64,000 bases of DNA, from the NCBI RefSeq assembly GCF_001598255.1, contig NZ_BCYP01000033.1, positions 1-64,000 of the forward strand, in the 5' to 3' direction. The translations under genes were made by a program, and so were the position numbers. Below are positions 3,148 through 7,750 of this stretch, one piece after another. The stretch is from Mitsuaria chitosanitabida ATCC BAA-476 = NBRC 102408 (GTDB taxonomy: Bacteria; Pseudomonadota; Gammaproteobacteria; Burkholderiales; Burkholderiaceae_C). The notes under the pieces are model-generated. The model saw nothing but the letters and a program-made list of their open reading frames with translations. It made no database searches and was not told the origin of the DNA. Every line of letters starts with the position of its first letter. The stretch's first letter is position 1.

Positions 3148-3342
3148 GAGAAGGACTCCTGTCCCATCCAAAAGTTGAAGGGCGGAACCATACACGAGCG
3201 ACAAGCCCCTCTCCCATGTCGATCGGCACCCGCACATTCCCGGGGTTGCCGCTCGGATTTCCAAGAACGTGGGAGAGGTTTTTTCTGACCCGAAACTTAC
3301 AATCGGGTTTTCCCTCGGTTCCCGCCGTCCCGGAGCCCCGCC

Positions 3343-3681: not shown

Positions 3682-3710
3682 TTGACACCATCGTCACTTC
3701 TGACGATGAT
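3682..3710 (+). promoter_or_regulatory. Sigma70-type promoter of the methyltransferase-glycosylase operon
   Basis: A perfect -35 hexamer TTGACA (3682-3687) is followed after 17 bases by GATGAT (3705-3710, 4 of 6 matches to TATAAT). The predicted transcription start falls at about 3717-3718, on the A of the ATG used by the methyltransferase, so the message may lack a leader. No Shine-Dalgarno sequence is seen before that ATG. Confidence 0.6.
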
Positions 3711-3717
3711 TCGGCGC

Positions 3718-4410
3718 ATGAAGTATCCAGGTGGCAAAGGCAAGACGTTCCAGCACGTCATCAACCTGATGCCTCCGCACCGGGTGTACATCGAAACCCA
3801 CGTCGGCGGCGGCGCGGTCCTGCGCCACAAGCTGCCGGCCGAGCGTTCCATCGCCATCGATGCCGACGAACGGGTGATCCAGCGCTGGCGCTCAGGCGAG
3901 ATCGAGGTCCCGCCCGGCGTCGAGCTGGTGTGCGCCCGCGCGGAGGATTTCCTCGCGCGCTACGCGTTCCAGGGGGACGAGCTGGTCTACGCGGACCCGC
4001 CGTATCACCCGGAGACGCGCCGGCAGCGGCGCATCTACCGGCATGAATACGACGCCGCGGACCACGCGGCGTTGTTGTCTGTGCTGGTGACCTTGCCCTG
4101 CAAGGTGATCCTGTCCGGCTACGCGCATCCGCTCTACGACGAGATGCTGCCCGGCTGGCGGACCCGCGAGTTCCAGGCCAAGACGCAGGTCGACGTCCGG
4201 ACCGAGACGCTGTGGTTCAACTTCGAGCCGCCCGCGGTGCTTCATGACCCTCGCCATCGCGGCGACAACTTCCGCGATCGTCAAACCCTGAAACGGCGCC
4301 TCGAGCGCCTGCAAGAACGTGTCCACGCCATGGACCCCGTCGAACGCGCCGCGTTCGCGCAATGGCTGCACACCGCTTATCCAGCCGCTCTCCGGAGCGT
4401 CGCCCCATGA
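3718..4410 (+). CDS. D12-class N6-adenine DNA methyltransferase
   Basis: The 230-residue product transfers a methyl group from S-adenosylmethionine to adenine N6 in DNA. The N-terminal MKYPGGKGK is the D12/Dam-type SAM-binding start, ETHVGGGAVL (about 28-37) is motif I, and YADPPY with Asp93 is catalytic motif IV. No large target-recognition domain is obvious between them, so the specificity is unclear. The frame opens further upstream (ATG at 3706), but family alignment starts at YPGGK and the promoter points to the ATG at 3718. Its stop overlaps the start of the downstream DNA glycosylase by ATGA, so the two are translated together. No cognate restriction endonuclease gene is adjacent. Orphan methylase, phage-derived gene, or half of a modification/excision pair are the alternatives. 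Confidence 0.9.
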   Translation: MKYPGGKGKTFQHVINLMPPHRVYIETHVGGGAVLRHKLPAERSIAIDADERVIQRWRSGEIEVPPGVELVCARAEDFLARYAFQGDELVYADPPYHPETRRQRRIYRHEYDAADHAALLSVLVTLPCKVILSGYAHPLYDEMLPGWRTREFQAKTQVDVRTETLWFNFEPPAVLHDPRHRGDNFRDRQTLKRRLERLQERVHAMDPVERAAFAQWLHTAYPAALRSVAP

Positions 4411-5237
4411 CCCAGACCGTTGCCATCGTCGCGCGCGCAGGTTCCCTGCAGCGCGAACTCCCGAATCCTGACCAGACCCTGCTGACCGGTGTGCGCTGGG
4501 GCGCGCTCGACGAATTCCCCACCCCCGCCTACTGGACCCGGCTGGCGCTGGCGCACCGCCTGGACGCGGCGCCGCCCGCGGCCTCGGGCCGCTCGCTGGC
4601 CGAGGAGGTCGGCGCCTCGCTGCTGGGCGGTCCCGGCATCCCCGTCGCGCTGGGCGAGGCCGCCTTCACCCGCGTGCGCGAGCGCGGCGCCTTCGTGCAG
4701 CCGGGCATGTGCGAGATCACGCTGGCCGGCTGGCTGAGCGAGCCGCTGGAGGTCAACGGCAAGACGCTGAACTTCCGCTTCGCCGAGCAGAAGGCCCGCC
4801 ACCTGGCCGCGGTGATGCCCGCGCTGCTGTCGGCTCCGGACTTCGCGGCCGGCTACGAGGTGCGCAACTGGCTGATGGCGCTCCCCGGGGTGGGCCCGAA
4901 GACGGCCTCGACCATCGTGCGCAGCTGGTCCGCGGCCGAGGATGTCGCCCTGCTGGACGCGCATGTGCTGCGCGTGGGCCAGGTGATCGGGCTGTTCTCG
5001 CGCAAGCTGACCGTGGAGCGGCATTACCTCGAGGTCGAGTCGCGCTTCCTGAAGCTGTGCGCCGCGATGGACCTGCGGCCGTCGGAGCTGGAGGCGGTGA
5101 TCGCGCGCGAGATGAGCGCCTCGCCGGAGACGGTGCGCTTCCTGGCCGACCACCTGAAGGCGACCGAGACCGCCGCCCAGCCGGCCGCGCGCCGCATGCG
5201 CGAGCCGGAACAGATCGCGCTGGTCTTCACGGCCTGA
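4407..5237 (+). CDS. HhH-GPD DNA glycosylase/lyase, OGG1-like
   Basis: This 276-residue protein carries a helix-hairpin-helix (LPGVGPKTAS) followed by LLDAHV. The catalytic Lys165 and Asp184 are 19 residues apart, the same spacing as Lys249 and Asp268 of human OGG1, so a bifunctional base-excising glycosylase with AP-lyase activity is likely. The natural substrate need not be 8-oxoguanine; the first 150 residues show no familiar subdomain. The ATG at 4407 overlaps the methyltransferase stop (ATGA), which argues for translational coupling and a shared function; an upstream in-frame start at 4362 lies inside the methyltransferase gene and is less likely. The next gene is convergent with only 30 bases between. 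The fold and catalytic pair are well supported; the substrate is unknown. Confidence 0.85.
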   Translation: MTQTVAIVARAGSLQRELPNPDQTLLTGVRWGALDEFPTPAYWTRLALAHRLDAAPPAASGRSLAEEVGASLLGGPGIPVALGEAAFTRVRERGAFVQPGMCEITLAGWLSEPLEVNGKTLNFRFAEQKARHLAAVMPALLSAPDFAAGYEVRNWLMALPGVGPKTASTIVRSWSAAEDVALLDAHVLRVGQVIGLFSRKLTVERHYLEVESRFLKLCAAMDLRPSELEAVIAREMSASPETVRFLADHLKATETAAQPAARRMREPEQIALVFTA

Positions 5238-6818: not shown

Positions 6819-6960
6819 GGCAGCCTCCCCGCGGCGCCATCCCGGCGCCCGCCACGCAAGCTATCACGGCGCCATCGACCCGTCATGGCCCCGGCGTGAG
6901 GGACAGCAAGGACCTCGCGAGTGCCGCCAAGGCCGAGGCCGACACCAACATGAGCGTGAG

Positions 6961-7073
6961 CGCCAATGCCAATGCCAATGCCAATGCCAATGCCGGTGCC
7001 GGTGCCGATGCCGATGCCGATGCCGATGCCAGAGGCGGTGACAGTACCAGTACCAGTACCAGTGCCGGTGCCG
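6961..7073. repeat. Hexanucleotide tandem repeat tract
   Basis: About five GCCAAT units, two GCCGGT, four GCCGAT, a break, then ACCAGT and GCCGGT units fill this stretch. It lies in the 293-base interval between the chemoreceptor start (6818) and the end of the small exported-protein gene (7112), about 140-255 bases upstream of the chemoreceptor. Both strands are open for a while in several frames (Ala-Asn/Ala-Asp or Met-Pro repeats), but no start, ribosome site or domain supports a gene. Nothing else was seen in the interval besides the chemoreceptor ribosome-binding site. Confidence 0.8.
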
Positions 7074-7111
7074 GCGTCAGAGCCGGGACGCCGCTCTTGC
7101 AGTGGCGACGC

Positions 7112-7750
7112 TCACGGCATGCGCGAGGTCGGGCTCTTGGCGGCCGTCCCCGCGGCGCCCTCGCGCGTGGCGGAGGCGACCGGGCGGCGCTGCCGGGCGG
7201 CGGCGATCGCGCGATCCAGGGCGGACTGCTCCGCGTCGATGTCCTTCAGCCAGCCCGCATAGGCCGGCCCGGCGTAGATGCGCTTCACGTCGGTGATCAG
7301 CTGCTGCGCCCGGGTCGTGCAGCCGGTGACGCGGTAGGCGCGGATGATCTCGACCAGGCCGTCCAGGATCGCGCCGTTGAGCTCGTCCAGCACGTCCATC
7401 GCCGCCTCGCGGTCCGACGGATCGCCTTGCGGCGACCAGGCCTGGTCGAGGTAGGCGCGCGCGTCGTCGTCGACCGGACGCAGGCTGTCGATGGCGCGCT
7501 CCAGCGAGGGGGCGGCGCAGTCGGCGCGGCCCCCCGCCGCGCCCTTGACGTAGCTGGCGGCGCTGGCCTTGACCTTGTCGAAGACGGCGCCGGCCCGGTC
7601 GATCGCCGCCTGGGCGCGCTGGTTGGCCTCGTTGGAGGAGAAGCCGCTGAGATCGTCGTCGGCGAACTGCGGCAAGGGCGTGGCGCCTGCCGGCAGGCCG
7701 CAGGCCATCAGACCGGCGACGCTGAGGAGCGCGAGGACGCGACGCATCAT
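7112..7750 (-). CDS. Exported protein of unknown function
   Basis: A 212-residue product beginning MMRRVLALLSVAGLMACG: either a lipoprotein signal (LMAC, Cys at about 17) or a cleavable signal peptide ending ATA-like after PAGAT. The mature part is alpha-helical and Ala/Asp-rich with two further Cys residues (RADCAAPS and RVTGCTTR) that could form a disulfide in the periplasm. No domain is recognised. Its ATG overlaps the stop of the upstream gene by ATGA, so the two small exported proteins form a coupled operon. Downstream lies the hexanucleotide repeat tract. Confidence 0.75.
   Translation of the reverse strand: MMRRVLALLSVAGLMACGLPAGATPLPQFADDDLSGFSSNEANQRAQAAIDRAGAVFDKVKASAASYVKGAAGGRADCAAPSLERAIDSLRPVDDDARAYLDQAWSPQGDPSDREAAMDVLDELNGAILDGLVEIIRAYRVTGCTTRAQQLITDVKRIYAGPAYAGWLKDIDAEQSALDRAIAAARQRRPVASATREGAAGTAAKSPTSRMP

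Follow-up and report, generated by a model that had tools for sequence, protein, structure and literature searches.

Protein tagging by enzymes of the QueC family has been shown for type IV CBASS and has been proposed for Qat. An OGG gene is also among those of type IV CBASS. In the available part of one account of type IV CBASS a QueC-like protein is placed beside a tagged partner (Cap9/Cap10; PMC11996544), and the available part of another gives the tip on which QueC-like enzymes act as MGGS in the type IV CBASS CD-NTase and MGTS in QatB (PMC13279940). A further QueC group, Cluster 4, has been filed under other metabolic pathways (purine salvage) in a paper whose main text, to the extent available and with supplements outside our scope, does not contain the terms 'glycosylase', 'OGG', '8-oxo' or 'methyltransferase' (PMC13329287).

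A glycosylase/AP lyase which works together with base methylation is described in PabI, for which methyl-sensitive, sequence-specific excision has been shown (PMC10273834 and PMC4615327, in the parts available), and excision of DNA bases in a defence setting is described for Brig1 and Brig3, with 5hmC or glucosylated 5hmC as targets (PMC13160076, in the part available). These enzymes resemble the glycosylase studied here in its predicted activity and setting but not in fold: from the same partial texts, PabI has the HALFPIPE fold (PMC10273834) and the Brig enzymes belong to the uracil-glycosylase superfamily (PMC13160076), whereas the present protein has an HhH fold and its predicted model matches OGG2 and endonuclease III. 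Its best sequence and fold matches were the OGG2 enzymes (3knt, 3fhf, 3n0u; 9o00), with which it shares the HhH core and the catalytic Lys and Asp, and from which it differs in an extra N-terminal domain and a C-terminal tail.

The DNA analysed here (the window) is a stretch of 64,000 nucleotides from Mitsuaria chitosanitabida, in which a D12 adenine methyltransferase gene is followed in tandem by an Ogg2-like HhH glycosylase gene. We consider it probable that these two genes are what is left, in domesticated form, of a mobile cassette of six genes linked to QueC, and that the lyase has been retooled.

The gene pair and its promoter

The first gene (3718..4410, + strand) is predicted from Pfam and alignments to encode a compact, Dam-like D12 N6-adenine methyltransferase of 230 amino acids and matches PF02086 at 38.7 bits (cut-off 22). 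The second (4407..5237, + strand) is predicted from Pfam, alignments and a structural model to encode an Ogg2-like HhH DNA glycosylase/AP lyase of 276 amino acids with a rebuilt base pocket, and matches PF22175 (Ogg-HhH) at 42.4 bits (cut-off 27). The two genes overlap by ATGA at 4407-4410, as an earlier note on this DNA, made from the sequence, had described. Both proteins are divergent members of their families, since in NCBIfam the first scored under the Dam cut-off and the second under that of N-glycosylase/DNA lyase.

A single sigma-70-like site was found between positions 3300 and 5600 (shuffled sequences gave 0.0), which agrees with the claim that one promoter serves both genes. It consists of a -35 box TTGACA (3682-3687), a 17-base spacer and a -10-like GATGAT (3705-3710) on the + strand, and the boxes and spacing were identical in 13/13 pair-only loci (8 + 5). 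Position 3682, previously read as a TTG start codon, therefore belongs to the -35 box; the start of the family, taken from those of the relatives, is the ATG at 3718 (M-K/R-Y-P-G-G-K). This ATG lies 7 bases past the -10-like box, so the transcript may be leaderless.

The proposed catalytic pair of the glycosylase, Lys165 and Asp184, was invariant across 21 aligned sequences. Its N-terminal part, which had been called unfamiliar, contains columns conserved inside its own family (W31, G32, W43, E66, E67 and L73-G77) and was modelled with high confidence (pLDDT 92.9 for the predicted structure), although the nearest solved structures, OGG2 and endonuclease III, were matched at a modest TM of 0.41-0.46 by query length. 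The earlier observation thus stood as regards the pair, its promoter and its catalytic residues, and failed as regards the start codon and the novelty of the N-terminus.

The window's 53 ORFs gave no PADLOC match (E up to 1e-10) other than to models of the methyltransferase, and hence no restriction enzyme was found nearby, as had been claimed; nor was a CD-NTase among these matches. The neighbouring genes presumably encode an S46 peptidase, a chemoreceptor, ComEC, RidA and a DsbB-like protein. The window's genome (G000) contains 27 matches to the pair-adjacent chemoreceptor at E up to 1e-60, itself included, and a low-complexity stretch near the pair (6896-7262) reads as repeated Met-Pro or Asn-Ala.

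A six-gene cassette linked to QueC

Relatives of the glycosylase were searched for across 84,980 species, each represented by one genome; 198 stretches were obtained and the best 80 of the 198 were kept. Profile searches of the surroundings of these best 80 identified a QueC-like gene in 72, a fusion of PfkB and nucleoside deoxyribosyltransferase (PfkB-NDT) in 73, a small, putatively HIRAN-fold protein in 72, a nitroreductase-like gene (NTR) in 70 and the methyltransferase in 56, counts which include the methyltransferase of locus L041, the small protein of L078 and the NTR of L092. The cassette accordingly comprises six genes, those for the HIRAN-fold tail protein, the PfkB-NDT, the QueC-like protein, the nitroreductase-like protein, the Ogg2-like glycosylase and the compact D12 methyltransferase. 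Eight of the best 80 loci were without QueC; five of these are from the window's genus (L033-L037), and in the other three the contig runs on downstream for only 384, 617 and 1380 bases.

The adjacency of methyltransferase and glycosylase is beyond chance: in 55 of the best 80 loci the methyltransferase lay upstream on the same strand, -10 to +15 bases from the glycosylase, and the 56th (L041) is a partial copy. The glycosylase occurred without it in the remaining 24/80, one of which, L101, has only about 300 bases upstream. Two layouts were seen among the 72 QueC-bearing loci of the best 80, with the glycosylase convergent to the QueC genes in 62 and on the same strand in 10, all of the latter without the methyltransferase.

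In the cassette of Pseudomonas BYT-1, PF06508 was matched by the QueC protein, PF00294 and PF05014 by the fusion, and the nitroreductase family PF00881 by the product of the fourth gene. The cassette QueC profile matched QueC (2pg3, 3bl5) and Cap9 (9nto) in the PDB, and in the alignment the protein contains SGGxDS and exactly CH(x)5CxxCxGCxK. Its C-terminal pattern and its PfkB (PF00294)-NDT (PF05014) partner are the same as those of QueC Cluster 4 in the available part of PMC13329287, where the YGQ...E spacing is one residue longer than that counted in the cassette QueC. The window locus itself retains none of the Cluster 4 genes.

With start codons chosen by script, 86/87 distinct copies of the small protein begin M-x-G, 55 of them MSGS, and a Gly-rich stretch follows. 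Its tip, MSGS, MSGG or MGGS, compares with MGGS in the CD-NTase and MGTS in QatB (PMC13279940, in the part available), a likeness which is suggestive only. The copy from L038 gave a predicted structure of pLDDT 87 with a moderate match to the HIRAN domains of HLTF and Rad5, which stood at ranks 5-18 in Foldseek (E 0.014-0.081, TM 0.50-0.63); ranks 1-4 were taken by lp_0118, a structural-genomics protein, and no match reached E 0.001. By sequence, HIRAN was not recovered, as a profile search of the PDB gave nothing and Pfam gave stray single-member matches, none of them HIRAN. A HIRAN-like fold is therefore assigned with moderate confidence, on Foldseek with the predicted model. The cassette differs from type IV CBASS and qatABCD in that its conserved set has no CD-NTase, QatA, QatB or QatD, and in that a HIRAN-like tail protein and a glycosylase take part.

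The relatives are found on chromosomes and plasmids of unrelated bacteria. A plasmid search returned 21 records; of the 16 loci examined, 15 carried QueC and PfkB-NDT and four the methyltransferase. A phage origin for the glycosylase was considered and rejected, no match having been found in 50,697 phage records. Relatives were present on 17 IMG/VR contigs; nine of these were strong matches (E of 2e-34 or less), and QueC was present in four. The gene is rare, being matched in 3/369 genomes of a class-level survey, the window's own among them.

Several variations on the cassette were recorded. An Mrr-like nuclease gene is present in some copies without the methyltransferase (L015:6725-7816, L017:8903-9661, L021:8893-9627 and L106:11236-12288), and a second PfkB-NDT and small-protein gene copy lies next to the cassette in L019:1556-3195 and L121:11430-12982. 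In L063:11032-13245 and L083:11065-12310 PfkB-NDT is split into two matches, apparently by an interruption or a frameshift. A distant cassette on an Agrobacterium Ti plasmid (L025:3302-9125) has a TIR-domain gene between PfkB-NDT and the glycosylase and two more past QueC.

No published account of a glycosylase-bearing QueC cassette was found in the open literature, covered at least in part, or in the available parts of PMC13329287, PMC13279940 and PMC13092281 (supplements and subscription papers being outside the scope).

Defence surroundings

Of 130 ORFs picked beside cassettes, 125 were compared with PADLOC and matched 210 families, as against 13 families for 112 control ORFs, which were drawn from the window's family and not from matched species; the counts are of families and not of proteins. 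The families among the matches listed for cassette neighbours include dGTPase, AriA, capP, Old and PtuA. The earlier note had proposed asking whether the pair recurs, moves between loci and sits in defence islands. It does recur, on chromosomes and plasmids of unrelated hosts, and neighbouring ORFs match defence models. This part of the earlier interpretation was upheld; the idea of a free-standing two-gene restriction unit was not, the pair being in origin a fragment of the six-gene cassette.

Retention, descent and selection in the genus

The glycosylase was found in 13 of 16 genomes of the window's genus and the methyltransferase in the same 13, while QueC and full-length PfkB-NDT were each found in 0/16, the window's genome included; the same searches recovered both genes in 5/5 cassette carriers of the family. 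Weak partial PfkB-NDT matches in five of the genus genomes were of the kind given by ordinary kinases. In eight genomes the pair neighbours the same S46 gene; in the other five it is found elsewhere. In congeners lacking the pair, the surroundings of the nearest MCP orthologues were without the rest of the window's neighbourhood.

In the glycosylase tree (n=111, midpoint root) the 13 pair-only sequences formed one clade (SH-aLRT 100), itself part of a clade (98) that also includes seven cassette carriers, and in the methyltransferase tree (n=71, rooted on orphan phage methylases) they formed a clade (98) inside another (95), nested among cassette carriers. Both trees come from quick searches and have SH-aLRT as their only measure of support, and L113, labelled pair-only in the glycosylase tree, is on a contig which ends inside the next cassette gene. 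With the pair-only clades nested in both trees, one loss of the QueC half explains the distribution.

Median dN/dS in the group of eight genomes was 0.19 for the methyltransferase and 0.23 for the glycosylase (S46, 0.18; MCP, 0.24 in 4 genomes; ComEC, 0.34 in 6 genomes), and in the group of five it was 0.07 and 0.09. Judged by these ratios, both genes are under purifying selection, which indicates that the pair has an independent function for which it is maintained.

The base pocket of the glycosylase

K165 (codon 4899..4901, + strand) and D184 (4956..4958, + strand) were retained in 13/13 pair-only glycosylases and in the aligned rows of further relatives. There are 43 columns conserved at 95% or more in 87 cassette glycosylases, and 27 of these, including the two catalytic residues and G161/G163, are retained by all 13 pair-only members. 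The base pocket is another matter: C71, W169, D229 and W233 are lost in 13/13 and N173 and I182 in 12/13, although each of the six is present in at least 86/87 cassette members; Y123 is altered in 8/13. In the window, codon 169 (4911..4913, + strand) encodes Thr in place of the Trp (Lys+4) of 86/87 cassette members, and codon 173 (4923..4925, + strand) Ser in place of the Asn of 87/87. W169, four residues past the catalytic Lys, occupies what we take to be a pocket position in OGG1. Codons 229 and 233 (within 5091..5105, + strand) encode Glu and Ala in all 13 pair-only members, against Asp and Trp in 87/87 cassette members.

In the alignment D229 and W233 correspond to Asp194 and Trp198 of the Methanocaldococcus jannaschii OGG2 (MjaOGG2), so the pair-only clade lacks both the stacking Trp and the matching Asp of OGG2. 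In the available part of the structural account, Trp198 stacks on both rings of 8-oxoG and Asp194 is the counterpart of OGG1 Gln315, and an OGG2 truncated short of the 8-oxoG sensor retained AP-lyase activity (PMC3397491). The C-terminal lysine with which OGG2 senses 8-oxoG is absent from the window's glycosylase, which ends ...QIALVFTA, 43 residues past position 233.

The glycosylase tree and the pocket comparison exclude 16 copies that were duplicated or short, together with the weak viral matches L122-L129, and the pocket comparison also excludes seven divergent or viral rows of the 111 (L025, L113, L114, L116, L118, L119 and L120, the last of which carries QueC); L010, L087, L092 and L097 stand in neither group. 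All six pocket residues are retained in nine relatives elsewhere with no QueC in view (L010, L087, L092, L097, L113, L114, L116, L118 and L119), several of which are truncated at contig ends, so absent cassette neighbours do not always accompany a changed pocket. The distant L025 glycosylase, which has QueC, carries Met at 169. Taken together, these rows point to a pocket change peculiar to the window's lineage, in one event, and as the loss of QueC is likewise a single evolutionary event, the link between the two has an n of 1.

The C-terminal QIALVF (5211..5228, + strand) looks like a sliding-clamp-binding motif, the consensus of which is QL(S/D)LF. Among 100 distinct glycosylase relatives scoring at least 250, the pattern Q[LIMVT]x[LFM][LFIVMA] fell within the last 25 residues in 55, against 1.5 in shuffles, and was missing in 45; a tail of this kind is present in 13/13 pair-only members.

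The methyltransferase and the promoter palindrome

The methyltransferase motifs K-Y-x-G-G-K, GGGA and DPPY were invariant or nearly so across 27 sequences, and pair-only members retain 56/57 conserved columns (in an alignment made without L113 and L087). Both GGG[AS] and DPPY were found in 58 of 68 aligned rows, and in these 58 they are 59-68 residues apart, whereas in the DpnII methylase the interval from motif I to DPPY is longer by about 90 residues; in the window's enzyme and these relatives, a target-recognition insert is absent from this interval. Full-length homologues at 48-50% identity are the orphan D12 methylases of IncP plasmids (Upf31.0), which have similar upstream inverted repeats, but further from the ATG than in the window, and in the two examined no glycosylase is annotated within 1.5 kb. 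In Methylorubrum extorquens pME152 (L221:1489-3630) the gene of a similar methyltransferase and one for a cysteine desulfurase overlap, and DUF4007 comes next; the window-type methyltransferase may be a mobile gene that can head a variety of defence operons.

An operator-like inverted repeat, ACCATCGTCA-CTTC-TGACGATGAT (3687..3710, no strand), overlaps the promoter in the window. In nearly all loci its family form, ATCATCGTCA-N4-TGACGATGAT, likewise overlaps the promoter and stops 5-8 bases short of the methyltransferase. With up to 4 mismatches allowed, it was present in 54/56 methyltransferase-bearing loci and 0/24 others (best 80 of 198), the two exceptions being the partial gene copy L041 and L047, which is cut by the contig start. 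The window's genome has one copy at up to 2 mismatches; at 2 mismatches, a second copy occurs in genome G218 and one site in G299, which lacks the pair. Among five orphan methylases, two from IncP plasmids have the more distant repeats, two from phages have none, and in the one at the head of the cysteine-desulfurase operon a weaker palindrome lies 8 bases upstream of the ATG. The palindrome by itself was rejected as a marker: 60 viral stretches contain the exact 16-base core and only one has a methyltransferase start within 60 bases, so the element is informative by its position. As it goes with the methyltransferase, that protein is its likely reader, on the evidence of this co-occurrence, although a host factor may read it instead.

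Discussion

Four other explanations of the pair were weighed. It is unlikely to be a restriction unit in which a site is marked by the methyltransferase and an adenine left unmethylated at that site is removed by the glycosylase, an action that PabI performs with a different fold. The overlapping genes, with the methyltransferase first and one promoter under a palindrome, would suit such a unit, and the pair has been conserved under selection without the QueC half. Such palindromes are known from self-regulated restriction-modification systems. Against this, the glycosylase does without the methyltransferase in 24/80 loci (best 80 of 198), which argues that it does not depend on the methyltransferase's mark for self-protection; furthermore, the methyltransferase has no target-recognition insert, the window's 53 ORFs gave no other defence match, and the pocket of the cassette relatives is of the guanine-type OGG2 kind. 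Methylation-gated restriction by the pair is consequently not favoured.

It is distinctly unlikely that the glycosylase acts against a modified base in phage DNA, as Brig1 and Brig3 do. The many defence models matched beside cassette relatives speak for this, and an enlarged pocket could take a bulky base; however, a pair held by 13/16 genus genomes, eight of them at one locus, is unlike a mobile defence gene, and Brig3 is of the uracil-glycosylase superfamily and not HhH (PMC13160076, in the part available). A decaying leftover without function is very unlikely: four of the six cassette genes are gone and six conserved pocket positions are lost, but median dN/dS is 0.07-0.23, the frames are full-length in 13 genomes, and the promoter boxes and C-terminal tail are retained in 13/13. 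Least likely is an ordinary 8-oxoguanine repair enzyme sharing the operon by chance, since, although OGG2 enzymes are the best solved relatives, the base-stacking Trp and its Asp are lost in 13/13, the OGG2 C-terminal lysine is absent and both trees have the operon inherited as a unit.

A domesticated remnant of the QueC-linked cassette remains the probable reading. Sequence comparison supports a common origin with the cassette, a single loss of the QueC half in the genus, selection on both genes, the change of pocket and the promoter palindrome; it likewise supports a methyltransferase with intact conserved residues and a glycosylase whose Lys and Asp are intact and whose base pocket has been rebuilt. 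In the mechanism that we propose, the methyltransferase would add N6-methyladenine and, through the palindrome, would hold its own promoter in check, so that expression of the overlapping glycosylase gene would be kept low. The glycosylase would be tethered to the sliding clamp by its QIALVF tail and would act on DNA undergoing replication or repair. The pocket of the full cassette's enzyme may read a purine-like base linked to the QueC product; in the window's pair, with that base gone, the enzyme would serve mainly as an AP lyase or act on another, probably bulkier, base.

More tentatively, and by analogy, the parent cassette could be a third QueC-family immune system. The QueC-like enzyme would join a 7-deazaguanine, perhaps made a deoxynucleotide by PfkB-NDT, to the M-S-G tail of a HIRAN-fold sensor of DNA ends, and the clamp-tethered Ogg2-like glycosylase would read or remove the base, as in type IV CBASS, where the tagged CD-NTase is bound by Cap10, a member of the transglycosylase family. 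The window's pair would then be a natural uncoupling, in which the base-maker is gone, the pocket is rebuilt and the lyase is newly used under a self-repressing methyltransferase.

A QueC group filed in 2026 under purine salvage thus travels with a DNA glycosylase and a putatively HIRAN-fold protein beside defence genes, which makes its metabolic label directly testable as immunity. The family also offers an evolutionary contrast on a common scaffold with common catalytic residues, the pocket being kept in 87/87 cassette members and rebuilt in 13/13 after loss of the QueC half, and this contrast between cassette and pair-only members points to what the pocket may read.
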